From Agelas oroides (taxonomy: Eukaryota; Porifera; Demospongiae; Agelasida; Agelasidae): a DNA stretch of 64,000 bases. The notes beneath the pieces are model-generated. The model saw only the letters and a list, made by a program, of their open reading frames with translations. It was not told where the DNA came from and did not search any database. A program made the position numbers and the translations under genes. Shown in pieces: positions 5,408 to 54,934 of this stretch. Numbering within the stretch: the stretch's first letter is position 1; each line of letters starts with the position of its first letter. The stretch is from positions 4,300,066-4,364,065 of the forward strand of contig OX422195.1 in NCBI GenBank assembly GCA_949130485.1, read 5' to 3'.

Positions 5408-6290
5408 GCCTCGTCCGCAGCGTTCTTCGCTTGCAGTACGAAATTCGTATACTGCAAGCAAAGAACGTTGCAAAGCCCTGGCAATGAAACTTCGGTTTGG
5501 TTCGTTTTCTAGCAGGATACAGCTTTCTCTACTGCCGCTCTGGCCTCGTTCAGCTAAAAACGAAGCACGGGCGAAGCTACGACGCAAGTCAATTCAGTAG
5601 CGCCTGTCAGCTAACTTCGGATCCGGGGTGGGTGCTTGCACGGGGATAGTTGGACTATTCAAGCACCTCCTCCATGTAACCGCCCACCCCCCAATTTTTG
5701 GTGCTTGAGCTGCGAGCGCCCATGGGCGCTTGCCCGGAACACTACGGTGAGTGGCGCCACCACTGAGATATAGTACATCCAAGTCGCACGAAGAATCTCG
5801 CTTATTTCAGGCGTCCGTTTGCTGACTCAAAACGAGTGAGCGTGGCTAAATTAAAATTGGTGGAAGTTGTACGCTGGCGAAACGGCTGCAGAGCTCACTT
5901 GCTCAATTCTTAGCCATCACTCTGACCTTTACACTATAATTAGGCTTTGATGGGATAATTATGCTAGCATAATTTTTTTAAGAATAGGTGGCCTAAAGAA
6001 TTAGGAATTATGCTGGTAAAATAAAAGAATACTAGGTGCTGTTTTTTTTTGCAGATGCTTAGTCTATATCTCATTCAGAACAGGTTTTTTTCAATACAGT
6101 CAAATTCGTTCTCTGCCCAGCAAGAATCGTCACCAAAAGATGATTATTATTTCTGTGATGTTACATTACAATAATCATTCTTAATGTTTAGAGTGCTTTG
6201 ATCAACTTGTATGGGCTTGTACATCTTGAGCACATCTGTGTGTATAGATTGTTTCCTGTTTAACCATGCAAGTGTTAATGATACAGAATA
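5408..6290. other. Unassigned DNA between the palindromic element and the minisatellite
   Basis: No gene is supported. GATTGTTTCCTGTTTAACC and poly-T runs are present. Short palindromic GCTAGCATAAT-type motifs occur at about 5962-5972, similar to ones near 31.56 and 31.85 kb. Upstream exons of the JMJD8-like gene were looked for and not recognised. Confidence 0.35.
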
Positions 6291-6294
6291 ATAG

Positions 6295-7490
6295 GTTAGG
6301 TGAAAAGAATGATAGGTGAGATGAAAATGATAGGTGAGATGAAAATAATGATAGGTGAGATGAATAGAATGATAAAAGAGATGAAAATAATGATAGGTGA
6401 GATGAGAATAATGATAGGTGAGATGAAAATAATGATAGGTGAGATGAAAATAATGATAGGTGAGATGAGAATAATGATAGGTGAGATGAAAATAATGATA
6501 GGTGAGATGAAAATAATGATAGGTGAGATGAATAGAACGATAAGAGAGATGAAAATAATGATAGGTGAGATGAAAATAATGATAGGTGAGATGAATAGAA
6601 CGATAAGAGAGATGAAAATAATGATAGGTGAGATGAAAATGATAGGTGAGATGAAAATAATGATAGGTGAGATGAAAATAATGATAGGTGAGATGAATAG
6701 AACGATAAGTGAGATGAATAGAACGATAAGAGAGATGAAAATAATGATAGGTGAGATGAATAGAATGATAAGAGAGATGAAAATAATGATAGGTGAGATG
6801 AAAATAATGATAGGTGAGATGAATAGAACGATAAGAGAGATGAAAATGATAGGTGAGATGAAAATAATGATAGGTGAGATGAAAATAATGATAGGTGAGA
6901 TGAATAGAACGATAAGTGAGATGAATAGAACGATAAGAGAGATGAAAATGATAGGTGAGATGAATAGAACGATAAGCGAGATGAAAATAATGATAGGCGA
7001 GATGAAAAGAATGATAGGTGAGATGAAAATAATGATAGGTGAGATGAAAATAATGATAGGTGAGATGAAAATAATGATAGGTGAGATGAAAATGATAGGT
7101 GAGATGAATAGAACGATAAGAGAGATGAAAATGATAGGTGAGATGAAAATAATGATAGGTGAGATGAAAATAATGATAGGTGAGATGAATAGAACGATAA
7201 GTGAGATGAATAGAACGATAAGAGAGATGAAAATAATGATAGGTGAGATGAAAATAATGATAGGTGAGATGAATAGAACGATAAGTGAGATGAATAGAAC
7301 GATAAGAGAGATGAAAATAATGATAGGTGAGATGAATAGAATGATAAGAGAGATGAAAATAATGATAGGTGAGATGAAAATAATGATAGGTGAGATGAAA
7401 ATAATGATAGGTGAGATGAAAATAATGATAGGTGAGATGAAAGAATGATAGGTGAGATGAAAATAATGATAGGTGAGCTAAAAAGAATAT
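6295..7490. repeat. 1.2 kb minisatellite of 21/18-bp units
   Basis: More than 50 units alternate between three forms: a 21-mer GAAAATAATGATAGGTGAGAT, an 18-mer missing AAT, and a 21-mer GAATAGAACGATAAGAGAGAT. All forms are multiples of three, so one plus-strand frame (382 codons) and two minus-strand frames (447 and 467 codons) stay open across the array. The plus frame would encode a methionine-rich heptad (MKIMIGE). The coding frames are best explained by unit length, and the array sits upstream of the JMJD8-like exons, probably in an intron. Confidence 0.9.
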
Positions 7491-7691
7491 TAAGTGAAAA
7501 TTTTGAGAATACAAGAATACAATGATAGGCCAAGAAAAATAACAATCCATTGAGGCCTAACTATAAACCTCATCCAACCTTTTTCATGATTTACAGTAGT
7601 AAGTGAGACTGATACAGATTTGAGCACAGTGAATCTGCAAGTACATCACAGGAATGTGGTAGATGAAGTTGAAGTTCTTTCTCTCCACCAG

Positions 7692-8274: not shown

Positions 8275-8667
8275 GTACATACCTAGCCTCGTTACCCAGG
8301 CCAGCCTAGTATGAGGCTATGTATATATATATATATGGCTCAACTTGTTCCTGTAGGCAATTTTATGTAATTCAAGCTACTCTATTGTCATTACTAAACA
8401 ACTCCCAATCAATTTTGCCTTGTAGCATGAAAGATAAACCCAATACCACGAGACAGAAGAGTTTCAAGGCTTATCTTCTACTGGCTAAATTTAGCAGTTA
8501 CGTTCACACAATATACTGCTGTATCAGCCATTGTAGCTAAGCCCTTACTACATTTCATTTTCACCCTGTGCAGAAACTTGAGCAAAAAGAGGGAGGTGGG
8601 CACTTGATACACACTCTATGGTAACCACAATATTTGCTTGATGTTGTTGATCTCGTATTGTACTCAG

Positions 8668-8778
8668 CACTGGTTCCTGTACCCAGCCAACATTCCACCC
8701 AGATGTTAGGATCACTTTCACCCTCCCACACCTCCCCCAGAACAACAACCTATGGAGTGTACCCTACAGCCTGGGGAG
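8668..8778 (+). pseudogene. JMJD8: JMJD8-like exon with an in-frame TAG
   Basis: Bounded by ACTCAG and GGGGAG|GTGCAT, the exon is 37 codons in phase 0-0. It begins HWFLYPANIPP and ends MECTLQPGE, both clear matches to the JMJD8 pattern WFLYP..(P/M)EC...GE. In between, the frame meets TAG at 8707-8709. The neighbouring frame instead reads TFHPDVRITFTLP, which resembles the family's FHP segment. A pair of compensating single-base indels therefore separates this exon from an intact one. The cause is either real decay or base-calling error. A (GT)n-rich tract follows the donor directly. Confidence 0.65.
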
Positions 8779-8805
8779 GTGCATGTGTATATGCGCATGT
8801 GTGTG

Positions 8806-8807
8806 CA

Positions 8808-8850
<43 letters not shown>

Positions 8851-8906
8851 GTGTGTGTATGTGCATGTGTGTGGGGTGTGTGTGTGTATGTGCATGTGTG
8901 TGGGGG

Positions 8907-8937
<31 letters not shown>

Positions 8938-9060
8938 TGTGTGTGTGTGTATGTGCATGTGTGGTGTGTGTGTGTGTGTGTGTGTATGCATGTGTGTGTA
9001 TGCGTGTGTGTGTGTGTGCATGTGTGTGTGTGTGCATGTGTGCATGTGTGCATGTGTGTT
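8806..9060. repeat. (GT)n-rich microsatellite
   Basis: Imperfect TG repeats with interspersed ATG, GGG and CATG variants fill about 250 bp of the intron between two JMJD8-like exons. All open frames over it (Cys/Val or His/Thr repeats) are artefacts of the dinucleotide. Confidence 0.95.
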
Positions 9061-9397
9061 GTGGGACCGTGCTGACAGTCATGTGAGTATTGTAGCTCCT
9101 TTCATCTCTGAGTCTATCAGTTTGTTGCAATCCATGCATCAGACATTGTGGTCTTGAGATGTACGACAACCTTATCTGATTGCAGTAACATTGTGGGCAT
9201 TTTGTCAATGTTGACATTGTGAGAATTGACAAAGTCGGAATTGACAGAGCAAAATTGATGGAAGTGGGAATTAAACAAAAATAGGAATGTACTGTGGGTA
9301 CTATCATTGAGCACTGTGATAGTACATTAATAATGTTCTAGACTTCCCAGAGTGTTGGTTGCTATGTACTGCTACAGGATTTTATCTCTTTCTTTAG

Positions 9398-9834: not shown

Positions 9835-12455
9835 TCACATAAAATAATGCTTAAGGTTGATGTGGTAGTGTAAGTTAGGGTTAGGACCAGAGCGCTTGCT
9901 AGCAGAAGTCTGTTTCAGTTGAGCAACTTGAAGCTTCAGAGGTTCAATGGAACACTGTTCAATTCCTAGTTTGAGAAGTGCGTGGTTGGATACGAGTCCT
10001 TTGGCAATCGGCTCAAGTTTTCCAATATTCAATTCGTCGTGACTTGAAACTGGAGCAGGTCGTGTGAGATTCCACTCATAAAGATACAACTCTTCAAGTG
10101 TGTTATTAAAGGAAAGCATCTCATAAACAGCTTCCAATAGTTCCATTTCAATGGGTTGTGTCTGTACGTATACGTCAATAATGGTTGCAATATAAAAATT
10201 ACTTGGACATCCAATTTTACTAACATCCAGTTTTTTAAGAGTACTGTTTTCCTTTACAGCTCTAAACAGGTTTAAATATGCTTTATGATCACTAATGCCA
10301 GACGAAGGAATACAGTTGTTGCTCATCTCCAGTTCAACAAGTGAAGTGGTACACATCAAGCTCTGAGCAACACAGTTCATCAGGGTATCAAAGCCATTGC
10401 ATTGTATAACTCTCAGAGCAGTAAGTCGGCTCATCATCCCTTTGATATGGCTACAGGTATCTTCACCGATGCAAACTTGTAGTTGTTCGAGTTCTAGTAT
10501 TCTGAGAATAGGTGCCTCATTTAATGCTGTAAGGGTCTTATCTGTAACTTCGTAGATACCACCCAAAGTCGGTTCCATCATTCTGCCTTTAACAGCAATT
10601 CGTATCAAGCTTTGCATTTCCATAAACAGATTAGGCATACCTTTAGAACCATAAGCTCTAAAACCATTTAGAAGCAGTACTTCACAATCAAGTGGGACTG
10701 TTGGTAGTATGCTTAAGGAATCAAATTCAGCTGCTGAAAAATCCACACACTGTACTTTCACACTTCCAGAATCTTCTCGTATTAAAATGCCTTGCTTCAG
10801 TGCCACTAAATCTGGCTCTGAGATACTATCAGATATCTTGAGGTATTTAAAATGACAGTCACTACTTGCTAGAAAGCAACCTAGAACTCTGTAGTCAAAT
10901 AGTGTAAGACCATCTCCAGAGAGTGAAATAGTTTTATCTTTGATTGAATTGGACAGAGAATGGCAGAGGCTGCTAGATTGGGCCTCATAGGTTATGTGAC
11001 ACAGGAAAAGAAAGTGTCTTTGCCTTTGTAGATCATGATAATCTTTGATGCACAGAGTTTCACCACTAAACAGATCGCCTGAGCGTGGTTGTGTTATACC
11101 AGCTAGAAACAGAAGCATCATTCTCAGCCTGTCATTTGATAGATGCTTTTTCATGAAAGCTTCCTGTTCCTCAGGCAAAATCTCCACTGCAGCCCATTTT
11201 GCAGCAAGGTATTCCTGTATGGTCAAGTGAAGGAATTGATAAGTCACCTCCCTACCATGTCTACTGAAGCTCTTTGTTGCTGTCATCAAACCAAGCAAAT
11301 GCTGTTCAACATTAGCATCATTATCATCTGGAAAAACAGATAATATTTCATCATAACTGAACACCAGATTGTCATCCATGAGCCCTTTGTATGCAAGTTT
11401 GGCAAGCTTTTTGAGATCAATTTTTAAAACCTCGGGCATTTTATCAACATCTGCAGCCATCGTTGCTTTTCTGATGCACCCTGCACTTGCGTTGCTCATT
11501 CCCTTTGAATGCCTTTTCAGGGCATGCAGAATGAAAACTTGGAATAATTCTGTTAGGGTGTTGGGGAGGGTGAAGCTTGACTCATTGTTACAGTACACAT
11601 ACAACATGATTGCACAGTTGAGTGGGATATAACAGAGAGACACAATATCTAGTCTTTCTTGTAACATGTCTATCAACTTCTTAGCTTCCTTTTCATCTGA
11701 AATGCTTTGGATTATGCATTTGTGTATTTCAGTTTGTCTAAATCCAAGAACTTCAATATGACGGTATTTTAGCTGGTATAGGCTTTCCGATGCATATGGT
11801 CGTGACGTCACTACTACAGTACAGTTGTGCAATTTCTCCCCTTTAATTATGTCCAAGAACAATGAATCTTGAGCCCTCTCCATGTATCCAAGTTCATCAA
11901 AGGCATCAAATATCAGTAAAACGTTTTCTCCACTTGTTGACTGTACATGCTGTACAACACTCTGCTGCAGTTCGTGATCATCACAATAGAATAGTTCCTG
12001 GATTGATTTTGCCTCTCTAACCTGCTTTTCCCTCAAGTGTAGTAGTACTACTAAGTGGTGATCATGAAGTAGTTCCTTATTAGCCCAGTCCTTGCAGATT
12101 TTACGACTGAGAGTAGTTTTTCCAACACCTGGTGCACCATCAATGAGAGCTTTCAGAACACGTTGGTCAGGTGAGAGTTTAAACATCTCAGTGAGTTCTA
12201 TCTCTTCCTTGCGTTTCAAGATCTTATCCACTTCCCCTCGAATGTAATCATCTTTTATCTCTTTGACTGACTGCGGATCAGGTAAACTATCTTGTTCTAT
12301 CAGTGCCAATCGGATGAATTCTTTTCCAAATGTTGGTGGCCATTCACTGTCTGGAAAGACAGCAAGTTCCTTGTATTTCTCTTTAAGATATGCAGCATAG
12401 CTGGTGATGCACTCTGGAAGTACCTTAGCAGACGAGATAAGCTGACTTGAGACTC
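9835..12455 (-). CDS. NLR receptor: NACHT-LRR exon (last exon)
   Basis: One 2.6 kb exon (872 residues) starts after the acceptor TTTTCCAG and ends at TGA (9835-9837). Residues about 20-60 hold a region with SEWPPTFGKEFIRLALIE, typical of sponge NACHT proteins. Walker A is GAPGVGKTT at about 107-115 and Walker B is LLIFDAFDEL at about 180-189, followed by a VVVTSRPYA sensor segment. The remainder has NACHT-associated helices and then leucine-rich repeats (LEMSNNCIP, LKKLDVSKIG, LEELYLYEWN). NACHT ATPases oligomerise on ligand sensing; the LRRs usually sense and autoinhibit. The exon entry phase fits the Death exon at 18417-18686 exactly (G|GA). An upstream in-frame TTG at 12483 is intronic and not the start. 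Confidence 0.93.
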
Positions 12456-13951
12456 CTGGAAAATGATTGAATTGTTTTACCAAATTAATTGCACAATGGA
12501 AGACCTTAAAAATGAATACTGAGACTTACATTGAACAAGTTGTGTGGCAAACTGCCAATTATTACTGCAAATATATAACAGTGTGGGGCGAACCTGAGTA
12601 AGCAGTACAGAGCAGGGAACTGGTTGTTGTCCAGGGACACATGCACAAAGTGGGGTTAAGCAATCAGTTTTGTCCATCTGTCAGTTTGTCAGTCCAGTAA
12701 AAAATTTTAAATCAGCACATTTACAGGGTTAAACAATTGCTGAACCAAAGTCACACCTGGCAAGATACCACCATGGGAATAGTATTGCAATTGATAGTTT
12801 TGGAGGAGATTAGTGGGTCACTGGTAGCTAGCTATACCTAAACGTTAGTCTTCATACCCTACTTTAGGCGCATGCACAAAATATTTATGAATAACTACCA
12901 TGTAGTGGGACATTGTCGATGGTGCAAAATTTCGTGGAAATGCCTCCAGACCCTTCAGAAGAAGTTGTTTTTTTTATTTTGGTGGAAAAAATGCACAATA
13001 CTTAGGCCACACTCCTAGGAACCAGTTGATTGCCATGCCCCACATATGAACCTGGCAACTTGAAGAAACGATGAAGTGAAGAAGCAAGCGGGTGTAACAA
13101 CAGCTGAGTCTTCCTTTGTGTGGAGGCTATCGCATTTACAATAGTATCTGGACTGCCGCCGTGGGCAAGAAAGTGCCTTGTCAAACAGCTTTGGAGCATC
13201 ACTTACGGCCTTGTTGGCATCTTGTATAGTAGCAGGCTGATTCTGCTCTACAGCTGCCATTTAGAGGGCAGACAGACTGTGGAGAACTATCTTATTAACA
13301 CGGGTACTTGTTCGTATGCACATTCACACCTCATAGCTTGGTTAATTTTTTATTGTGTTTTTTTTTGCGGAAGCAAGTCAGTCTGCAAAAATCGTGAAAA
13401 TTTGCACCCATCAAAAATTTCTCACTATATGGTAAGCTGTTGCTTAGGTGAAGTAGTAACAGCTTGATTTCCTGAATGCAGTCCATCATTCATAATGTTT
13501 GGTTCCGCATGTTATTACAATGCAATTATTATTATCTGAGTAATGGATAGTAGACACACTTATAAATATTGAATGCTGTTAGCTAGCTGTGAGTCTCATG
13601 TTCCTGTCATAGCAGAGCAGCATGGGGTATGTCTTCTTTGGAGACCTCTAGTTTTGCTAAGTACTTCTGGAAGGTGGTATTCCTGTTTCTGGTCCGGCAT
13701 TTACCGTTACAGTGGTCCAGATGGGTGGATAATTAGCACCTTAACAAACAAGTACTTAGCAGGTGTTGACTGTATACTGTAAACTCTGGAGTATGAGTAC
13801 CGGTACTTCTATTTCAAAATCGTGCACATGTGCTGCAGTGCTTATCATGTAGTGTACTTATAATCATGGCACCATGGGGCTAAATATACAGTAGTCCAAA
13901 GGCAGCTGTCACGATGCCGCGGTACTGACAAAGCTACTGCTAGAGTGGATT
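12456..13951. other. Intron of the NLR gene (part)
   Basis: No exon is supported here. A segment at 13120-13440 is related to 19290-19590; both contain TTGGCATC(C/T)TGTATAGTAGCA and end with a GCGAAAATTTGCACCCAT-like block. This is a dispersed repeat, so its open frames are not genes. Confidence 0.5.
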
Positions 13952-14009
13952 TAGTCTCGCAAGCCCGACCCACTTCCGCTAGCGGAAGTGGGTCAGGCTT
14001 GCGAGACTA
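13952..14009. mobile_element. 58-bp hairpin MITE of the TAGTCTCG family
   Basis: Two 29-bp arms beginning TAGTCTCGCAAGCC are reverse complements with one mismatch around the centre CCGCTAGCGG. Flanks GAGTGGAT and GAGTGGAC agree at 7 of 8 positions, consistent with an 8-bp target duplication as in hAT transposons. Relatives lie at 39080-39153, 44689-44744, 50453-50526 and 21498-21592. Confidence 0.75.
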
Positions 14010-15463
14010 GAGTGGACTACTTGACTAGTGTGTGTTTATGAACAGACCTACTGCCATCTGCTGTCAAACTTCAGCATCGCTATTGACCAAAACCGGCCAT
14101 GTGACCAACCACCCAAAGCGCTATACGTAGCTTGTCTGTGGTACTTCATAGACATCAAGGCAATTGTTCCAGTTGTAGGTAGTAGTATCTCATCATAGAT
14201 CTAGTATTGCTGCTGCTGCTCCCCGGATAGCTAGCTACTGCTATCTATGTTTGGTCTTTGATGAAACTCCACCCACAGACTGGTTATGGGCTGATGGGTA
14301 CTAATATTCATAGGGTAGCTATGTTCGCGTGGGTATTACTATGCAGGAAATTGATAGCAACGGTTTTGATAGGTAACTATATTCATAGAGTACTTATAAT
14401 TGATGGCTATTAAATACTCCTAAGTTTACAGAGATCTCAACCGCTTAGACCAAAAATGAGTGAGAACGTGGTGCAGAATTAGGGAGATCAGGAAAATGCG
14501 TGAGACATGCTAAATAGATAGTAAAAGTATCCCTTGCTGTGTTTTTTTTTTTTCGAGGCCTCTGACACGGGTATGGAACACCAAATATGGCAAAATCGCT
14601 GCTAAATTATTGTCACATGTTGCAATTGGAGTCCGCAATAACACAATATTACATTACAAGAAAGCCATTCCCAGGCCTTCACAACATACCTTTTGCAGTA
14701 CGAGGCTGTTTACATTTCAAGCAAACTTTGTAGTTACCCGGTGCAGACTATGTAAGCTACAGTGGATTGTTCTTCTTGCACATGCATAATGCATGAGAAA
14801 AATGATGCAATGCGTGTAAGCGTGAGTTTTGTGTAAAATGCATGTGCCTCACATGCAATGCGTGAGAGTTGAGAGCCCTGCAAGGATCCAGTGGCAAGAC
14901 TATTCCAGCAGAGGAAAGTACCAGCTTCTATGGGGCTTACTGTGTGGTAACTTCATGATACTACACAGTATAGTACCAACTGTATTTTACCAAGTTTGGG
15001 GGGTAGCCTTCTTCCCAGGTCTTCGCCACCTCCAGTATTTGCATGAATGCTACCAGTATGCAAATATGAAAGGGGAAGGCCTAAGAGATCACATCATGTG
15101 TAATGATGTCATGTAATGTAAGGTAGAGAGTGCTAGACCAAGTGAGGGGGGTGCCAGACAAAGAACCTTGATGCCCTTTCTTGCAATGTCCAAGGACCGG
15201 AGGCCAGATTGTTTGTACAGCAGTGTTAATCCAGTTTGTTGCTGATACAATGGTCAGGCACTACCCTTCTATGTGTTTACCTTAGTCTCTCTACCTGACA
15301 TCACCAGATCTCTCAGGCCTTCCCCCTTCACGTTTGCATGTACTGGGAGCCATCAAAGTAATAGTCAAAGTGGCAAAGGCTTGAGAATAAGGCTATTTTG
15401 GGGGTAGCTAACAGAATCATAAATCAAGCACTTCATAAATGTTGCATATAGATAGTCTGTATA
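14010..15463. other. Intron DNA of the NLR gene with repeat fragments
   Basis: No exon was recognised. 15280-15463 carries the leading part of the large dispersed repeat also present at 17270-17400, 30915-31035 and 38020-38140, with the motif GGGAGCCATCAAAGTAATAGTC. Confidence 0.45.
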
Positions 15464-15996
15464 TACCATATAGCACCAAAGTTTTGAGGGACAACATTTT
15501 CGTGAAAATAAATTTCGCAGATCGAGGATTCCCGTTAGCCATGCCCATTTTTAGCAGCTGCATGTACAATTTGTGTTTCTAGTTGCAACAACGCCATGCT
15601 CGGCTGCTTGCTTCCAAGTCTAAGCATTTTGCTCCGAGGCCAACTTCATCATCTAAGGTCTTCTCGGTTTCATTTGTTGGAGCTCATCAACTACGCGTCT
15701 CAGGCCAGAGACGCCTCCCTATTGACAAATGCAATGGACATCGAAGGAACTTACAAAAGTGGACCCCGGGAATCCAGAAGCGTTGGCTTGGAAATAACAG
15801 TGGAGAGCCATGTTGTTCTTGATGTCCACGCAATAGTGCAAAAGCGGAATAGCTATTATTTTGCTTCCTGACCATACCATGGACTCCCAAGCAATTTAGC
15901 CGAAAAGTTTTTCGGAGCTTAATTTTCGTGTTATGGGATGAATCTGTGAAAACCACGAAAGTTATGTGCTTTGAAAATTTGGCGCTATATGGTAGC
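15464..15996. mobile_element. TIR element of about 530 bp (TACCATATAGCRCCAAA ends)
   Basis: The left end TATACCATATAGCACCAAAG and the right end TTGGCGCTATATGGTAGCTA are inverted. The same body recurs, more or less complete, at 17400-17640, 27840-28215, 29335-29860, 31036-31355 and 38143-38250. It includes the block GTCTCAGGCC(A/G)GAGA(C/T)GCCTCCC. No transposase is visible. Frames of 80-120 codons are shared between copies but interrupted at different places. Confidence 0.65.
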
Positions 15997-17084
15997 TATA
16001 GGAAACAATCACATGATTAAATTCATACAATCTTCACTTGAGGCTGTTCAGAGTGTTATGTTTGCAAAATTATTAGACGTAACACTATACTCAATCTGCT
16101 ATAGGATTTGTTTTTCCTAAGACTAGCATCTTCTGGGTTTAAAAGTGTGTTTGTATCCTTGAACTACTCTAGCAAGCTCAGCTGCCGTCTTGCACTCACA
16201 ATCTGCTCAGGTCAGTTAAGGCGGCCCCAAAATGTATTATTTGTGACACAGAAGTATGTGAAAGTATTGCCATAGTTCGGGAAAGTATTGTGATAGTTCA
16301 CGGAGATTGAACGGCTGCTGTGTGTAATCTTGTTAGCTTTGCTACTGTTATTCTGACTGTTAGTCCGTATTGCTTAGCTTTGTGTTATCGATGGTTGTGA
16401 AGTAGGTAGGTCTGACTTACCAAAGGGCTGCCATTGAGACCGAGCACTGCGTGTTCCTGGGAGCAGGAGGGAAGAATGTGGCTTGAGCTACTCGAGTGAC
16501 GATGACCTATCACCTTTGGCGGTTGATGCAGAAGGTCAGATGGCTAGATTTGTGGCTAAAACTTTGAGAATGTGTAGTGGACTAGTTGTACTAATGTACT
16601 GGACCTTGGGACAGAGGCTGTTGTTGTTGTCTGGAGAGGTGAGCTTTGATAATTGAAATAAACACCGATTCCAGGTGTAAAAACATTTTGCTTCTTGGAG
16701 TTTCATGTTGTATCTGGTACCGTGTCCCTACCCAGATTCAGATAGCTAAAGCAAAGAGCTTTTGGTCAATCAATATCCATTGCGTCGGGATTGAAAGGCA
16801 TTTGAGGTTCCGCATTTATTATTGCTTACATAAATAACTGGCACCTGAATGCATTTCACAGGTTTCCAACAGTTGATCAGAACCTTAAGGCAATTAAATT
16901 TTGACCCCCTCCAATTTTGGGATTGTTAGCATGTTGCCATGGTAACACTTGTTTATAATAAACTATAATCTATTTTCTATTCGGTTAATCAATGATTGCT
17001 AAATTAGAACATGTACTTTGCCTTCAGTACAAAGGGTAAAGCAAAAATTGAGCTAAAAATCAAAATTGGGGTATGCCTTAATCA
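15997..17084. other. Trailing part of the dispersed repeat, then unassigned intron DNA
   Basis: 15997-16200 matches 28915-29130 and 29860-29950 (CAATCTTCACTTGAGGCTGT, TTATTAGACGTAACAC), so the mobile unit is larger than the TIR core. From 16200 to 17084 nothing recognisable is seen. Confidence 0.45.
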
Positions 17085-17640
17085 CTCTGAGTGTATGAGT
17101 ACACATGTAATGCACAATAACATATTGTGTCACCTTGCATGGGGCGGATCAAAGAAGCTACACTCACTTTAAGGAAGCAAGATCTGGCCTTGCCGGAGAA
17201 CAGTGCTTTAAATAGGTGTGAAGAGTGCTTTAACTGGGTGTGAACTACATGGGCTTATTTTCGTTCAGAAAACTTTTTTTGTGACTTGTTTGCATACACT
17301 AGGAGCCATCAAAGTAGTAGTCAAAGTGGCAAAGGCTTGGGAATGAGGCTACTTTGGGGGTAGCTACACAGAATCATAACTCAAGCACTTCATAAATCCT
17401 CAATATGTTGTATAGCGCTGAATTTTTGAGGGACAAAATTTTTGCGGAAACATATTTCGCGGATTGAGGATTTCCGTTAGCCATGCCCATTTTTGGCTGC
17501 TGCATGCAGAATTTGTGTTCATAGTTGCAACAATGGCGTGTTTGGCTGCTTACCTCCAAAATTAAAAAAGTGTTTTGCTCAGGGGGAAACTTCGTCTAGG
17601 GCCTTCTCGATTTCATTGTGATTCATGCTTTAACTGGGTG
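17085..17640. repeat. Second, truncated copy of the composite dispersed repeat
   Basis: It contains GTACACATGTAATGCACA, CACCTTGCATGGGGC, AAGGAAGCAAGATCTGGCCT, the CATCAAAGTAGTAGTCAAAG block and the start of the 530-bp TIR element. It breaks off at about 17620, where a palindrome begins. Confidence 0.7.
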
Positions 17641-17741
17641 TGAATGGTACAATTACCATAAAGTTTCTAATATAGGCACCACAAATGGCGTCTATAGGTG
17701 CCTATATTAGAAACTTTATGGTATATTATACCATTCACACC
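17637..17741. mobile_element. 105-bp palindromic MITE
   Basis: GGTGTGAATGGTACAATTACC and the following TAAAGTTTCTAATATAGGCACC region are mirrored by the right arm ending CCATTCACACC, with a 16-bp loop. A single arm recurs at 37155-37200, attached to different sequence. Confidence 0.8.
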
Positions 17742-18416
17742 GTGGATCTGAAGGAAGCAGTGACGTAGTCCTCTGTACTAACACGGCTGAGTAGTCTGTC
17801 AGGGATGCCATCTTACTCGCGCTCACCACACATGTAAAGGTGGGCATGCAACTTCTGCTCCAACAATTTAGGCGCTGCCTAAAATTAATTCCAAAGTCCA
17901 AGGGCGCTTACAATTGAAAGAAAAAATTACGATATGCCCTAGGAGGCACTTACATTAGGGTGGCATCTATATTAGAAAAAAGCAGCTTGTGTACTCCTCA
18001 TACAACTGCGCTCAATCGAGGCATATGCAATTTTGTTGGTGATGCTATACCATGGACTTTTGAATACACTTTCATTCGGCAACAGCCTGAAAGCTAAACG
18101 GCCTGGCAGTGAGTAAATACTGGTACAGATTCAGCCACAGCAGCTATAAGCTTGATTTGAATTGAGAAGCCAACAAAACACATTTGGCATGACATCATGC
18201 ATGGCAACAACTGTGTCTGATATCATTTCGCTCGTAGAGGTGATATAACTATTATTTGCATTCATACATGACACAGTAATATTTATCTAGCTGTTCAAGC
18301 AATTTCAAGATATGACCTTAGATAGTTTTCTATCATACCTTAGATTTCTATCATACCTCAAGTTATCTTTTGCATGAATACACAGTGCATAAATTACTAT
18401 GTGTACAACTGCTCAC

Positions 18417-18686
18417 CATATTTCTCACAAAGCCTTTCTGCCACATCTCTCCTTCCCATTGTAGAGACTGCACTAATTAATGCCTCACAAGTACACTCGC
18501 CACAGTTATTGAACCACCACTCAAACACGGAAGTCAGGCATCGTTGTGAGTGATCATTAAACTGAGCGTGATTGTTTTGAATGATGCGAAGCTGATCTAG
18601 AGGCACAAGGAGCATTGTTCCCAATGTATGCCACTCAGCTGCGAGTGGAAGTGAGCACAGGAAGGCAAAATTGGTGGGCGACCCCT
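18417..18686 (-). CDS. NLR receptor: Death-domain exon
   Basis: The acceptor TTTTTTCTAG and donor TATG|GTGAGC bound a 270-nt exon that is phase 1 at both ends. The 90-residue product shows the Death-domain pattern: LAAEWHTLGTMLLVPLDQL (W and LG of helices 1-2), IIQNN, CLTSVFEWW, then LISAV, and VAERLCEKYG at the end. Death domains join adaptor or kinase Death domains by homotypic contacts, giving this receptor a signalling module. The phases match the 2A exon upstream and the NACHT exon downstream. An in-frame TAG lies 6 codons past the donor, so reading through the donor would end the protein there; the splice is the better model. Confidence 0.85.
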
Positions 18687-18850
18687 CTAGAAAAAAGGAA
18701 CAACATGAGTAAAATGATTACAGGTGCAAATGGGGGTTGGTAATTTATTGAAGATGGTCACTCTAGCTCCCCTGTCATGTATGCACTGCTGAGATAATTC
18801 GGGTACATCTCCACAAGAGTCATGCTGGGTACAAATGTTGTAAAGATAAT

Positions 18851-19184
18851 GTAGATCAGGAAAATTTCGCTGTTAAAATAATTTCGCAGTCAAGACCAAC
18901 CGCGAAGATTTAACACGCGAAAAATAAACTTACACGGCGACGATCAATGAAAAAGCTTGCGCGCGCAAGTCCACACCCCCCGAAGTAAATATCCGATCGA
19001 CGACTACAGCCAACGATCCCTTGCTCTCCTGATACCTAGTAGTAGACTAAACGCTAGGAACTCTCCAGGCGCTCGTCTCGTCCATATTGTAATCGTCAAC
19101 CAATTTCGTGGAGCGAACGAAACCGCGAAAATTTAACACCACGAAAATTTTTCACGCGAAGTATGAAAATTTCCCAATCTACGG
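18851..19184. mobile_element. TIR MITE with GTAGATC(A/G)GGAAAATTTC ends, copy 1
   Basis: The left end GTAGATCAGGAAAATTTCGC and right end GAAAATTTCCCAATCTAC are inverted. An inverted copy lies at 20422-20696, both inside NLR intron 1. CG-rich internal blocks (CGCGAAAATTTAACAC) resemble those of 19480-19580. No coding capacity is seen. Confidence 0.75.
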
Positions 19185-20421
19185 TACTAGTCTCTAGTAT
19201 GTTGGGACTATAGACCTGGGAATGCCACATAAAAGTGTATGAATGACCCCGGACACTAGCCTTGCCTATCGATCTCCACTTTGACACCTTCGGAGCATCT
19301 CCTACGATTCGTTGGCATCCTGTATAGTAGCAAGCTAATTCTGCTCTACAGCAGCCGTTTATTTTAGGGTACAGACAGACTTTAGGGAACTAGCTATCTC
19401 GTTCACGCAGGTACCTGTTCGTATCGTCATACGTACACTTATCTAATACCACGACCAACATAAAACGTTTCTACCGCAGTTCATTTTTTCGTGGGTTTTT
19501 GTTTTCGATTTTTTTCGCGGAGGCAGGTCGGTCCGCGAAAATCGCGAAATTTGCACCCATTGAAAATTTTCCGCTATACTGTATGTGCAGGTGTGTGTGT
19601 ATCCGCTGAGGCATACTGATATGTTTGCCAATAGTCCAGTCCTACAGACTCGAGCTCCCCACTGGAACATATGTACGCTTGATTGCCTCGCTATACGTTT
19701 TAAATGCCCTACCGCTTGTCTAAACTGCTCTACTTCTAGCCTCGCTGCAAAGACATTGAGAACATCTCCCTCCGAGCACGCTGCTACGTATGTGCACCGT
19801 GTTAGTTTTTGAGGACCGGAACGCGCGTATGCGTTTCGCGCGTGTATACGTGCGTAGCTCGCCTTTGCAGGCGTCGGAGAGTTCTGAAAGTATACGGAAA
19901 CGCGTTATTGGCAAGTTACATCCCCTTGATCCAATGGCTATGAGAAAACAAGGGATACCACAACAGCTGTAAAAGATTTTTGCTCACAAAGCAGAGTTGA
20001 TGCCAGAGTTATAATGTACAAAATAGTAAAACTAGATGATGAGTACGTTAAAATTTCACCGCACGCGGATTTTATTGTCTTCCTATTTTCAAAATCTTAG
20101 CTATGCTCCTGAGTTTAGCCAATGACCATGCATACATGGATAAGACACAGCCAAAACTGGATGTAGCAATGTGCGGTACACGTATCTACTATGGTTCCAA
20201 AATGGCCTCAGAAGCGATCTCAGAGGATCTAATTTTGCAAAATTTCCTGGGGGAGCATGCCCCCAGACCCCCCAAGTTCTGCATGAGTACACGGAGATCA
20301 ATGTAACCCCCCTTCTGAAAATCCTGGCCACGGGCCTGCAATGTCATTTGAAGATCAAAATGGGGGTTCGAGCGAACCCCCTCGAACTCAGCCTGCCTAC
20401 AGGCCTGACTTTGCAGCTACA
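19185..20421. other. NLR intron DNA with further repeats
   Basis: 19290-19590 is the dispersed repeat shared with 13120-13440. A motif GGGGGAGCATGCCCCCAGACCC at about 20251 resembles GGGGGCATGCCCCC at 59277. No exon is supported between the two MITE copies. Confidence 0.45.
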
Positions 20422-20696
20422 CACCGTAGATCGGGATTGACGGTTACATAATGGACGAGCGCCTGCAGCGTTCCTAGCGTTTAGTCTACTACCAGGTATT
20501 GGGAGAGCCAGCAATTGCTGGCTGTAACGCTGTGTGGCTGTCGGGAGTAGTCGTCAATCGGACATTTACCTCGGGAGATGTGGACGTGTGTACACGCTTA
20601 TTCTTTGATCATCGCTGCGATGTTTTTATTCGCGTGTTAAATTTTCGCGGTTGGTCGGGATTATTTTAACAGCGAAATTTTCCCGATCTACGGTAC
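20422..20696. mobile_element. TIR MITE copy 2, inverted relative to 18851-19184
   Basis: It starts ACCGTAGATCGGGA and ends TCCCGATCTACGGT. It is about 275 bp, with CATTTACCTCGGGAG and GTTAAATTTTCGCGGTTGG blocks matching the reverse complement of copy 1. Confidence 0.75.
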
Positions 20697-20803
20697 ATGC
20701 ACTGCTGATTGCTACGTCATACTATGTATAAAACCGTTAGGAATTGCACACACTTATCATAAACTCTTGCCATTAGGTGAGGTCTAGGGAAACCATGCAT
20801 TAC

Positions 20804-21293
20804 CTAGCTTGAAGGGGCCAGGGTTCAGTTCCACGTCGCCAGCTATGATGAGTAAAATGGCTAGAATCGGTACAACCGAACCCCCGGTAAGCGAGGGGGT
20901 TTCCACTCCTGCGTTTCGACGTTTGTCCATCGACCTACATTTCTCCGATCCAACGAGGAGGAGCGTGGATGCTAGACGGATTGGTAAGAAGCAGGCGCTC
21001 GTGAGTTTACACGGGGAGTTGTTGAGGTTGTTACTCCTGCTGCCAACTGCGACTACTAGGGTCAACAGTGCAACGAAGGAAATAAACTGATGGAGCGCTC
21101 TACTATGAGTCTGCTGTGGGGTATTCCTCCCCTTTCTCTGTCTGCTTTTAAATGCGCGCTTGCAGTCTTGGTTCCTTCCGGCTTTTCTGCACTTTGACGG
21201 TTTGTCGCGTCGACGGCGAGCAAGTGGCCTTCCTGCGGTGAACGCATGCCAGAGCCCTATCTTAGCCCTCCACTGGTTTACATCGATCCCCAT
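20804..21293 (-). CDS. NLR receptor: first coding exon with signal-like segment and 2A motif
   Basis: The minus frame is open from an ATG at 21293, with a second ATG at 20930, and ends at the donor CTAG|GTAATG (phase 1), which fits the Death exon. The end reads VVPILAILLIIAGDVELNPGP: a hydrophobic run followed by a canonical 2A-like sequence. 2A makes the ribosome skip the bond between the final Gly and Pro, releasing the N-terminal part. In sea-urchin NLRs such N-terminal 2A sequences also act as signal peptides. From ATG 20930 the leader would be about 38 residues, the size reported for those; from 21293 it is about 160 residues, basic and Arg-rich. Without splicing the frame stops 9 residues after NPGP. 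A 2A of this type also occurs at the start of some non-LTR retrotransposon ORFs, the main alternative. Confidence 0.72.
20814..20840 (-). other. 2A-like ribosome-skipping motif (GDVELNPGP)
   Basis: The nine codons read G-D-V-E-L-N-P-G-P and match the 2A consensus D(V/I)ExNPGP at every fixed position. They follow a leucine/isoleucine-rich stretch. Skipping would leave Pro as the first residue of the Death-NACHT-LRR product. Confidence 0.9.
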
Positions 21294-51058: not shown

Positions 51059-51307
51059 CGTATTTCTTGCAGAGGCGGTCTGCTTCAGTGATCTCTCCCA
51101 CTTCCAACAGAGCTTCCACCAATTGTTGGTAGGATGGATTGGGGGTGATCCTGAGCCATGCTTCAAACATCTCCCTCCGGCAGGCTCTGAGATCCCCTGG
51201 ATTGTTCTTCTGAATCACCTTCAGCTCTGCATTTTCCACCCCCAGTTGCAGGCCTAAGTCATACCACTCCACTGCTCGAACCAGCACTAAGTCTTTGAGC
51301 TGGGGTC
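51059..51307 (-). CDS. Kelch-ROC-COR-Death protein: Death-domain exon
   Basis: The acceptor CATATTCAG and the donor TACG|GTAAGAC bound 249 nt, phase 1 at both ends. The product has the Death-domain pattern: VEWYDLGLQLGVENAELKVI (W, LG), QKNN, REMFEAWL, LVEALLEVG and ADRLCKKYG. It ends with the same KYG-then-donor arrangement as the NLR Death exon at 18417-18686. DAPK1 and some other Roco proteins also carry a Death domain after COR. It would recruit a Death-domain partner after GTPase activation. Confidence 0.88.
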
Positions 51308-51425
51308 CTGAATATGGAGAGGAAGAAGTGATCAGGTTAGGGAATAATACAAATCAACATGTAATTACATATTGATGCTGAGGATACAAGTCATACCATA
51401 TGTAACAAAAATCATGAATACCTAC

Positions 51426-51477
51426 CAAGCTTTCTTTGCTCTTTGTCACCACCTCCAGTGTTTGCGCTATGTGGCAT
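51426..51477 (-). CDS. Kelch-ROC-COR-Death protein: 52-nt linker exon
   Basis: Between TTTGTAG and CTTG|GTAGGT lie 52 nt reading MPHSANTGGGDKEQRKL, phase 0 in and phase 1 out. It joins the ROC-COR exon (ending in phase 0) to the Death exon (entering after phase 1). It is a flexible Gly-rich linker. The exon is accepted because it makes both phases fit. Confidence 0.7.
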
Positions 51478-51574
51478 CTACAAAGAGGGGAAAAAATGGG
51501 TAACCTGAACCAGAAAGTTATGCAACATTCAACTACTAGCATCCATTGTGCAATGCATAGAATATATTACTCAC

Positions 51575-53796
51575 CGGATGTCCAAACCAGATGCGGTAGT
51601 AGTCAGGAAGGTCACATGACCGACTACTCTTACTACACTCCATGACAACGGGATCTTCACTATGGCACACAGCCAGATGATCATGTGCTTTAGTGCAGGA
51701 AGGGTGGGTGCAGTAGAAACTGTAGTGGAATGCTGAGTCACAGCTGTAGTGTAAAGTCTGGCTAACAGCAACTATACCTTCATCAATACACTGTCGGATC
51801 AAGTCACACACCTCATGAGGGGAGGTCTGCAGCACAGCAGCTGATGCTTGTGTTTCACATTCAGACTGCACTAAAACCTCGAGTTGAGTTGCGTGTGTAG
51901 TAATTGACACAACATTGTCCTCTCGCCCAACCTTGAATGTTACTCGGTCACGTGATACTCCATGTTCATTCAACCGCCAGGTGATCTTTGCTCCACCATT
52001 GTTGTGCTTTGACATTAGGTGGACTATTAGTGCACTGAAAACTCCCTTGGGACAGTAGCCACATCGGAAGGTGATAAAGAGGGGTGGTACTTTGCTGGAA
52101 GCCTCCTCTCGAATTTCTGCTTTGGGTGTTGCATGACTGAGCACACAGGGCATAAAATATTTCTCCACTTCTCCACTTTTACCTCGAATTGGTGCAATAA
52201 TATGTAAATGTTCCAGTAGCTTCACAAGCTTTGCACTGCTCAGGTATTCGCTAGACCGTGCTGCGAGGTCCTCAATGGTGCGCAATGGGAAGATGCCCGT
52301 CTCTCTGAACTGGCGAGCATCATGGGGACCCACTTGCTCAAAAGTGAATGTCCCCGAAATCAGCACCGTGATTTGGTCAAAGAGGAGCTGCGGGTCTAGA
52401 ATGACCACATCACGTAACTCAGGAACACTTTCAAAGTAGCGGATGAAACCTACCTTGTGGTGGAGAAACCACAAAGCTTCTTTTAGCTCCTCCGGCGTAT
52501 CGATACCGCACTCGCTAGCGATACTCATACACTGGTCATAGCTGATAACAGGAACCTGCAAAAGCCTGAAAGCTAAGCTAGAAACTAGCCAGGGAAGGGG
52601 GACCTCAATGTGAAATGAGGGATGCCTCGCGATTCGCTCCACTATGCTCCGAATCTTGTCTGTATCTCGACCATCTGATGAGATGTTGTTGACTGTGAAC
52701 ACTGGTTCGTCTTCAGATGCAAACACGAGTATATTCTGGCGGTAGTACTCTGTCTTCTCCAGTGTTTCTTTAAGCTCCTTCTGTATAGCTCTGATTTGTG
52801 CCTCACTTGCTTGGTCTTCATGGGTGGCAACCAGGACTACCTGTGGTTTTATTGCAACCATCTTCTTGCTGGTGTAAGAGGCATAACTGCATGTAGCAGC
52901 AATGCTGGCCAGTGACTGAAGGAGAGTTTCTTTCACTGTAAAGCTGGACATATAAGGCCTGCTCTTCTGGGAAGGGGAGACAAACTGGACTTGGTACCTT
53001 TGGTTGAGATCATCAATAAGCTTGAAGACCAGGAAGAACAAAGCGGGGCCAGAGATTAGAGCTGGGAGCACTTCTTGAAATTCAGGCTGCCCTCCCGTGT
53101 CTGTAAAGTAGATGGTCAGTGAATCCTTGATGAATGCTTCTACCTCTCCCCACTTTTCACTTTTCAGAGCCTCTTTGAAGATGTCAAGAGGAGCCTTGAA
53201 CCCGGGGACAGTGGATGTTGAGGAAGCTGAGAATCTGCGTTTTCCAAATCGAAAGAAAGGCTGCAGCCCAGAACGTGCTGATCTCTCTGACTGGGGTTTG
53301 TTCTCAGCAGATGTTGAGGCAGAGGGGCTTGCCATTTCTGCTTTGTCTGTGCTCTCATCCTTTGTAGCACCCTCCAGGGCCTGTGGTTTCGTCTGTGATG
53401 AGTGAGAAATGCGACCCTTTGTGACAGACTTTAGCAGTGCTATTGCTTCCACATCAAATTCAATTTGTTCCCATATCAAGCCAGGTTGAAGAGCCATCGC
53501 AACAACCATCGTAACCTTCTTGACGGTGACACGCACAACAGCATTTAATACGCCTGTGCTTGGAGAAACACACCTATGACCAGGTTCTTGTACCGTTTGC
53601 GATTCCTTGGCAGCATCAGGACCCTCAGGACCCTCAGGGTGAATGGTGGAAAGTTGCATTCCTGTGAGCCGTGCAAGTAACGTAGATTTTCCAACACGTG
53701 GATTGCCACTGAGCATGCACTGCACAGCGTTAAGCATGACTTTTCCTTTCTCTCTCATTATTCGATCACAGATGGTAAGGTGTCGCATCTCCTCCT
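51575..53796 (-). CDS. Kelch-ROC-COR-Death protein: ROC-COR GTPase exon
   Basis: One 2.2 kb exon (740 residues) runs from the acceptor TATCCCCAG to the donor CATCCG|GTGAGT. Walker A is SGNPRVGKSTLL near residue 30. The switch II motif DTGGQPEF lies near 230 and THED, the NKxD equivalent, near 322. A Ser-rich insert of about 130 residues separates Walker A from the DxGGQ motif. COR follows (ELKEALWFLHHKVGFIRYF, VVILDPQLLFDQ, KLVKLLEHLHIIAPI, YFMPCVL), then a C-terminal region with a Cys-rich YCTHPSCTKAHDHLAVCH. ROC-COR proteins are GTP-regulated dimers. Without the splice the frame ends 9 residues later, so a downstream exon is needed. Confidence 0.92.
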
Positions 53797-54934
53797 CTGG
53801 GGATATATAGAGAATGATGTATTTTTAGCGAACTTGAAATGGTCACAGCTTTTTAGGCACACAAGTGCATCAAGATGGCAGGAAATATTAGTGAATCAGT
53901 ACTACCCCAATGCTCATGGATAGAAGGAAAGCTATTCAAAGTCCCCAACACACCAAAACATGAAAGTGCTGCATAAGCACATGTCACTGGACATGGATAT
54001 CACTTCCAGGAGAGAGTAAACTTCCATTGAAATTTGACTATAGCCAAAAACATTTGTGTCCAGAAGTTAGAGTACACCCAGTGCAATGTGGTAGCTGTAA
54101 TGGGGCCCAGATTTTACTGCTGGCATAATTTTGGGAATAATAGGTTCTTACTGGCATTGAGTATATTTTGAGAATAATAGATGCTATTTTTAGGAATAAT
54201 AGGCACAGCCCAACCACATTAGTGGGGATTAGAAAATCGCTGCTATACATGCAGGATCAGTAGCTATGAGCCGTGTTGCAAGCACTAGCGAGCTGTGTCA
54301 ACCTTTGTAGTCCTTAGTTCTGGATTTGAATTTAAAAATAAACCTGAAGAAGCAACACAGGGACAGAGCAGTACAATATTTTGTCGTCATCTTCCACAAG
54401 TGAGAATGAAGTGGTACCATTGTTGCACCTATCTATAATATGTGTTCATGTCCATTATTATACAGATATGGAAAGAATAATAGCAGTACATTATTTTGTC
54501 ATCATCTTCCACAAGTGAGAATGAAGTGGTATCATTGTTGCACCTATCTGTAATATGTGTTCATGTCCATTATTGTACAGAATATTGACAGATATGGAAG
54601 GAATAATAGGCACACCTTGGAAGAATAATAGGGAGAAAAGTTAAGAATTGCAGAATAATAAAAGCATATTTGGCTCAGGGCTACCTGTAATGAGGCCAGG
54701 TTTTTACTAGTGAAGTGTCCAAACCCTATTCAACTGCAGGGCAACCCATTAAAAAATTGGTCTGGGAATGAGACTAATCTGGAAGCTGATTATGAACCCA
54801 AATTGTCACAAGGCACCTACGTGAGTACTGTACATGTTTCACGGTTCTAGATGCTGTACCACACCCACCTGTTGGAGACTGGGGGTGAGGTGTGGGCATG
54901 CAGCTGAGCTCACTACCATGTTGCTGCCACTCAC
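53797..54934. other. Intron with a 118-bp tandem duplication
   Basis: 54369-54486 and 54484-54605 are near-identical neighbours (TCATCTTCCACAAGTGAGAA, GAAGTGGTA(C/T)CATTGTTGCA). The stretch around them is rich in GAATAATAGG motifs. No exon is seen. Confidence 0.75.

Follow-up and report, generated by a model that had tools for sequence, protein, structure and literature searches.

The window, i.e., the whole stretch of DNA analysed here, comprises 64,000 bases of the sponge Agelas oroides (C13:4300066-4364065 of the 259 Mb assembly), and contains a minus-strand gene for an NLR receptor with a 2A-like sequence at the end of a long leader. As an earlier sequence-only reading of this DNA had proposed, three minus-strand exons, 21293-20804, 18686-18417 and 12455-9835, can be joined without a stop into 1126 codons, both joins being in phase 1; their splicing is predicted from frame, borders and phases. 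The joined 1126-residue protein would begin with a leader of 159 residues, which ends GDVELNPG^P, and continue with Death, NACHT and leucine-rich repeats (LRR), the order which that reading had also given. The features are listed below, with exon borders marked by a slash and the evidence in brackets.

20804..21293, minus strand: exon 1, the leader exon, 490 bases with a phase-1 end at the donor TAG/GTAATG (open reading frame, join, 29 homologues, donor phase, start context)
21240..21293, minus strand: conserved motif at the N-terminus, MGIDVNQWRAKIGLWHAF, residues 1-18 (columns invariant or almost so; proportion of non-synonymous differences, pN, 0.05-0.09 over residues 1-24)
21033..21098, minus strand: hydrophobic run 1, residues 66-87 (hydropathy, 30 of 30 family members)
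20949..20999, minus strand: hydrophobic run 2, weaker, residues 99-115 (hydropathy, 26 of 30 family members)
20841..20897, minus strand: hydrophobic run just ahead of the 2A core, residues 133-151 (by hydropathy in 27 of 30 family members)
20814..20840, minus strand: 2A core GDVELNPGP, with the predicted skip between Gly (20819-20817) and Pro (20816-20814) (joined frame; NPGP invariant in 30 rows)
18687..20803, minus strand: predicted intron 1, from the donor given above to the acceptor TTTTTTCTAG/AG (borders)
18417..18686, minus strand: exon 2, Death, symmetric 1-1 (Pfam Death 1.5e-5; phases in five of five family members)
12456..18416, minus strand: predicted intron 2, donor ATG/GTGAGC, acceptor CATTTTCCAG/GA (borders)
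9835..12455, minus strand: exon 3, NACHT and predicted LRR up to the stop codon (join, Pfam, homologues, model, Foldseek)
11695..12147, minus strand: NACHT domain (Pfam 1.9e-20; genome match C13:4311760-4312212)
9907..10854, minus strand: LRR-like repeats (strand-helix units in the model, local confidence largely 60-88; Foldseek NOD2/NLRP)

The assignment to NLRs follows from the NACHT domain of exon 3, the predicted LRR and the Death-family N-terminus. The last passes the Pfam cut-off of 22.6 bits when the open reading frame (ORF) of exon 2 is searched alone (25.4 bits), and scores just below it in the joined protein (20.6 bits). No Pfam LRR family matched. The leucine-rich repeats are predicted from the fold: the model of exon 3, weak with its mean predicted local distance difference test score (pLDDT) of 55.5, has repeated strand-helix units at the C-terminal end, and a Foldseek search with it gave NOD2 and NLRP chains as top matches, with NLRC4 also among the matches. 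NPGP occurs once across the six frames of the window, in frame at the end of the exon 1 leader. Seven minus-strand ORFs of introns 1 and 2 gave no meaningful Pfam match, and neither a reverse transcriptase (RT) nor an endonuclease.

The leader is a conserved protein in its own right. A protein search with the exon 1 ORF returned 29 homologues with 54-96% identity over 95-99% of the leader, and 7 further distant proteins (E 1.2e-5 to 9.4), which have in common a start with WRARIG, in one case WRAAIG, and an end that is hydrophobic and reads AGDVELNPGP. In the resulting 30-row alignment NPGP is invariant and MGI stands at the window's start-codon column in 27 rows; since, in addition, A occupies -3 and G occupies +4 in all six genomic copies of the leader, a start at ATG 21293 is supported. 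Several copies have additional ATGs within 180 bases 5' of the start. An alternative short start at Met 122 was disfavoured, as conservation begins already at the first ATG. What the sequence-only reading had regarded as a short leader is instead conserved and about 160 residues long, with two to three hydrophobic runs and an N-terminal motif of the type MGIDVxxWRARIG, while the hydrophobic run which it had noticed ahead of the 2A motif is indeed present (residues 133-151). An AlphaFold model (pLDDT 55), used for helix positions only, places helices at residues 5-19, 42-55, 60-86, 97-118 and 140-156.

Between the window leader and its five genomic paralogues the ratio of non-synonymous to synonymous substitution rates (dN/dS) is 0.29-0.38. 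Conservation is concentrated in the N-terminal motif and in the 2A end: in comparisons with four of the paralogues, pN is 0.05-0.09 for residues 1-24 and 0.06-0.14 for residues 139-163, against 0.12-0.38 elsewhere, and the proportion of synonymous differences (pS) over residues 139-163 is 0.59-0.76. These values, together with the invariant NPGP, argue against an inactive motif in a leader that would be a plain N-terminal membrane anchor of the receptor. Such an anchor would have no need for NPGP, and we regard this explanation as improbable.

Among the homologues, the leader protein P0126 and the NACHT-exon protein P0010 come from contigs of equal size (1,249,159), as do P0130 with P0012 and P0013 (286,077) and P0140 with P0061 (2,949,556), which suggests, short of proof, that leader and NACHT exons share contigs. 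NPGP was absent from all NACHT homologues among the matches listed (n=120), and no loci were found in the viral_contigs and genome_contigs collections. One protein from another contig, P0152 (213 residues), has an MGIDVNLWRARIG leader and 2A fused straight to a coiled-coil stretch. This stretch is reminiscent of a retroelement ORF1; Pfam and PDB searches gave nothing firm, and the second half of P0152 had no match in the genome at E<=0.01.

All counts of genome matches given here are lower bounds. Beyond the window, strong copies of the leader were found at C13:1841203, C3:14932222, C3:15104964, C4:2077455 and C3:10600122, the first being the closest with 86% identity. The five best matches to the Death exon, the window's own included, are located downstream of five of the six leader copies on the same strand, and the exon is symmetric (1-1) in all five. 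The paralogous Death exons fall on both sides of the Pfam cut-off, L001 and L007 above and L003 and L005 under it. NACHT stretches were found about 16 kb on from the C4 leader and at the C3:10.6 Mb copy, the latter 29% identical to that of the window. A Ty3/gypsy-like element was recognised by eye in the ~19 kb read at C3:14932222.

In the leader alignment the rows are alike until the G after FKL, i.e., the proposed donor (FKL/G), and mostly dissimilar past that point. The exon 1 leader ends in VVPILAILLIIAGDVELNPGPFKL, and the frame reaches a stop of its own 15 bases past the proposed donor, 9 codons past NPGP. Exon 1 might on this account be a separate small gene, unspliced to the Death exon, and it is in line with such a gene that no full-length leader-receptor protein was found among the 619-1970-residue candidates at E<=10. 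However, beyond the donor the letters of the copies bear no relation to one another, although FKL/G is retained, and leader and Death exon have remained together in five of the six copies. Moreover, all 23 leader-type loci have a GT(A/G) donor 4, 7 or 10 bases past NPGP, always in phase 1. A separate small gene is accordingly highly unlikely.

The 23 loci were chosen in different ways, 14 through the finding itself or through leader, Death and NACHT searches, 2 through the 2A pattern and 7 at random; an unbiased rate can be taken from these last seven only. A Death or Death-like exon follows the leader on the same strand at 19 of the 23, and none was seen at L009, L020, L023 and L028. Nine of the 19 exons are above the Pfam cut-off (window, L001, L007, L011, L012, L013, L024, L027, L029), three are below it (L003, L005, L019) and two are without a Pfam match (L021, L022), while the five from C10 are incomplete in the stretch read and have no Pfam score. 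The Death-like exon of L021 is 23% identical to that of L029 (E 3e-5, a single comparison). A Death profile of our own was built from L001, L003, L005, L007, L019, L022, L024 and L029, and its matches at these eight loci are no test, since they served to build it.

For the random sample, 80 of 138 places were drawn with a seed, of which the first 10 were read over 4.9 kb and the next 20 over 136 bases. The 30 sites read were sorted into 19 leader-type, 7 retroelement-like and 4 unclassified. The first ten comprised seven leader-type sites, with Death exons in L024, L027 and L029, Death-like exons in L021 and L022 and none seen in L023 and L028, and three retroelement-like sites, L025 and L030 recognised from Pfam matches and L026 by eye. 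Among the next 20, 12 have a phase-1 donor within 4-13 bases, 4 continue, as judged by eye, into a C-x-x-C type stretch like the retroelements, and L039, L040, L044 and L049 are the unclassified ones.

The retroelement-like sites bear on another possible origin of the leader, as a remnant of a 2A-bearing non-long terminal repeat (non-LTR) retrotransposon caught beside an NLR. Odon and colleagues reportedly described, in 2013, 2A sequences in APE-type non-LTR retrotransposons, and elements with the same core motif do exist in this genome: in L025 (C2:8721380-8726279) a single frame holds 2A, a PHD finger directly after it, endonuclease and RT, and in L030 (C1:15558773-15563672) the 2A stands directly before a PHD match below threshold, with an endonuclease in the next ORF. 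In such elements, however, no donor follows the 2A, which continues into PHD, endonuclease and RT, whereas the window 2A ends an exon and is followed by a Death exon, as at five of the six leader copies. A phase-1 donor after NPGP was found at none of the three retroelement-like sites L025, L026 and L030, the retroelement 2As that were read are without the WRARIG leader, and P0152, whose coiled-coil stretch would favour such an origin, has a second half with no match in the genome at E<=0.01. After the leader frame of the window and of its five paralogues no endonuclease or RT was seen. Because of the exon phase, the exons downstream and the lack of endonuclease and RT, we rejected a retrotransposon origin for the window locus, an alternative left by the sequence-only reading, and we give such an origin hardly any probability.

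The motif is widespread in the genome. A DNA pattern for AGDVELNPGP gave 12 matches in 259 Mb and its reversed pattern 0; with the leader conserved from end to end, this excludes a chance origin. The wider pattern D(V/I/M)ExNPGP gave at least 285 matches, again with 0 for the reversed pattern. With 206 of the 285 sites used for positional counts, 12 of 105 NACHT matches among those listed had a same-strand 2A no more than 15 kb upstream, against 0 for the other strand and 1 downstream; for the 78 Death matches listed, the corresponding numbers were 12, 0 and 0. Along C1 (~4.34-5.10 Mb) and C3 (~0.33-0.82 Mb) we observed one-strand runs of 2A sites, often 10-30 kb apart, which resemble tandem arrays of genes more than they do scattered elements.

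Other genes in the genome carry leaders as well. Five Death exons on C10, 44-46% identical to that of the window, each have an upstream 2A exon of another leader family (...LLLLQAGDVERNPGPTPG) and, by position, a NACHT match downstream; further Death matches exist on C10 beside these five, whose surroundings were read. The order 2A, Death above the Pfam cut-off, NACHT recurs in two C11 genes and one C2 gene; in the first C11 gene one of two Death exons passes, and in the second the score is 22.7 against 22.6. The Death-NACHT-LRR gene with a 2A, which the sequence-only reading had held to be a notable instance, is there but does not stand alone, being one of many such leader genes. The observation of that reading is confirmed and its interpretation partly supported; the skipping and the exported and cytosolic forms that it had proposed are predicted from published work on sea-urchin and viral 2As. 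Leaders also precede a second class of genes. At L019 (C1) a broken-frame leader is followed by an exon that is Death-like (Pfam 0.05, below the cut-off) and by long ankyrin repeats, and at L029 (C9) a leader from a further family, its frame unbroken, comes with a Death exon (5.7e-8). The part of L029 after Death is 60% identical over 266 residues to the L019 stretch between Death and ankyrin; the ankyrin repeats of L029 would fall beyond the DNA read, so its link to the ankyrin family is by way of this middle part. Leaders L021 and L022 (C8) have a different start (MPPNGPDEWRARIGHWENRKLRW) and yet contain WRARIG, and the motif therefore spans leader families.

Judged by its letters, the leader end is a 2A/StopGo sequence: DVELNPGP agrees with the core (D/G/C/N)(V/I)ExNPGP, and LLIIAG with the L-rich class, in which an L-rich stretch closes with (A/S/C)G ahead of D (PMC12846837). 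In that work four wild-type motifs, one of two L-rich ones among them, were ~93-100% active in reticulocyte lysate. We consider it likely that exon 1 is a phase-1 2A leader exon, whose product is detached during translation from a cytosolic Death-NACHT-LRR receptor. Translation would start at ATG 21293, and the basic, hydrophobic leader would engage the membrane of the endoplasmic reticulum. At ...ILLIIAGDVELNPG the ribosome, by analogy with the tested L-rich 2As, would leave out the Gly-Pro bond, releasing a 159-residue leader, probably membrane-inserted, and a separate receptor of 967 residues with a Pro-Phe-Lys-Leu start, mostly cytosolic. The few chains left unskipped would be tethered to the membrane or exported. 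Because of its phase-1 end and the symmetric 1-1 Death exons, the leader exon could be joined to other such genes by exon shuffling or duplication, which fits its presence before several families of Death-domain receptors.

Several observations weigh against this explanation. Of the six leader copies, intact Death and NACHT-LRR exons are shown at the window copy only. In the closest copy, C13:1841203, one stop interrupts the leader and the NACHT exon is broken, and relative to this copy the dN/dS of the Death exon is 0.78. Within 9 kb of the C4 copy there is no Death match, and no NACHT was found in the ~19 kb read at the C3:14.9 and C3:15.1 Mb copies. Within the leader, pN exceeds pS over residues 122-138 in two comparisons (0.26 vs 0.16), and the leader model is of low confidence. 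The missing full-length protein counts here too, and the L-rich class prefers Ser at the core place where the window has Leu (PMC12846837).

Dual targeting could also be the main purpose of the 2A, with partial or regulated skipping and a large share of leader-fused receptor that is membrane-bound or exported. The hydrophobic leader, present in all 30 family members, is in keeping with this. On the other side, a Death-NACHT-LRR protein is not known to have an evident role outside the cytosol. Dual targeting has been proposed for sea-urchin NLR 2As, and urchin SpNLR2A6 skips at ~80%, whereas a mutant of it that does not skip is directed to the Golgi (PMC4981915); the 2A classes tested in vitro, an L-rich one included, skip at ~93-100% (PMC12846837), which speaks against it. 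We think dual targeting as the main purpose rather unlikely.

A 2A followed by a Death-NACHT-LRR receptor has its nearest parallel in the sea urchin, where 85 of 241 NLRs have 2A-like sequences (Roulston et al., 2016; PMC4981915). The SpNLR2A proteins share with the window gene the architecture, a 2A near the N-terminus and the hydrophobic residues preceding it, and in test cells the urchin 2As were active both in recoding and as signal sequences. The tested urchin 2As, however, are 26 residues long and lie at the extreme N-terminus, whereas the window 2A closes a 159-residue leader and ends at residue 160. Unlike SpNLR2A, this leader begins with a conserved MGIDVxxWRARIG motif and has two to three hydrophobic runs, and in Agelas oroides genes of an ankyrin family are preceded by 2A leaders as well. 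Death-NACHT-LRR genes are known from another demosponge, Dysidea avara, where they make up 25 of 126 genes of a large NLR repertoire (PMC12909245); in the main text of that paper, as far as drawn on, the terms "2A-like", "signal peptide" and "ribosom" are not present. 2A in NLRs is also mentioned in PMC11512398. A limited search of the openly licensed PMC literature gave no report of a 2A in sponge NLRs or Death-ankyrin genes. An N-terminal 2A is thus already known from sea-urchin NLRs, and what differs here is the long WRARIG leader and the second receptor class.

Elsewhere in the window, a Roc/COR-A type ORF (51536-53824, minus strand, COR-A 5e-10) and a Death-exon match on the same strand (51060-51284) form a probable Roc-COR-Death gene (51060-53824) beside the NLR. 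Within intron 1 the stretches 18850-19200 and 20440-20720 look alike by eye in opposite orientation and are perhaps small transposon copies. At 6147-7556 and 8625-9157 long tandem repeats give repetitive open frames on both strands.

2A leaders on cellular genes are unusual, and here related genes of the same genome have them too. More tentatively, as a possibility short of even odds, the phase-1 2A-leader exon may in this animal lineage be a shuffled module in front of Death receptors of several architectures, NACHT-LRR and an ankyrin family, with the leader as a functional partner, for example a guard or a reporter of translation. If so, this one genome would hold on the order of 100-200 leader exons (19 of the 30 sampled, scaled to 285), and each message would yield a membrane-inserted leader and a cytosolic receptor in equal number. 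The leader, conserved at its WRARIG start and 2A end and variable in the middle, would then not be waste. With so many natural leaders that end alike and differ upstream, the genome offers material for testing 2A function. Should skipping be confirmed, it would be a regular step for part of the innate immune repertoire of this animal, and the trait would either be old and common with echinoderms or have arisen more than once.

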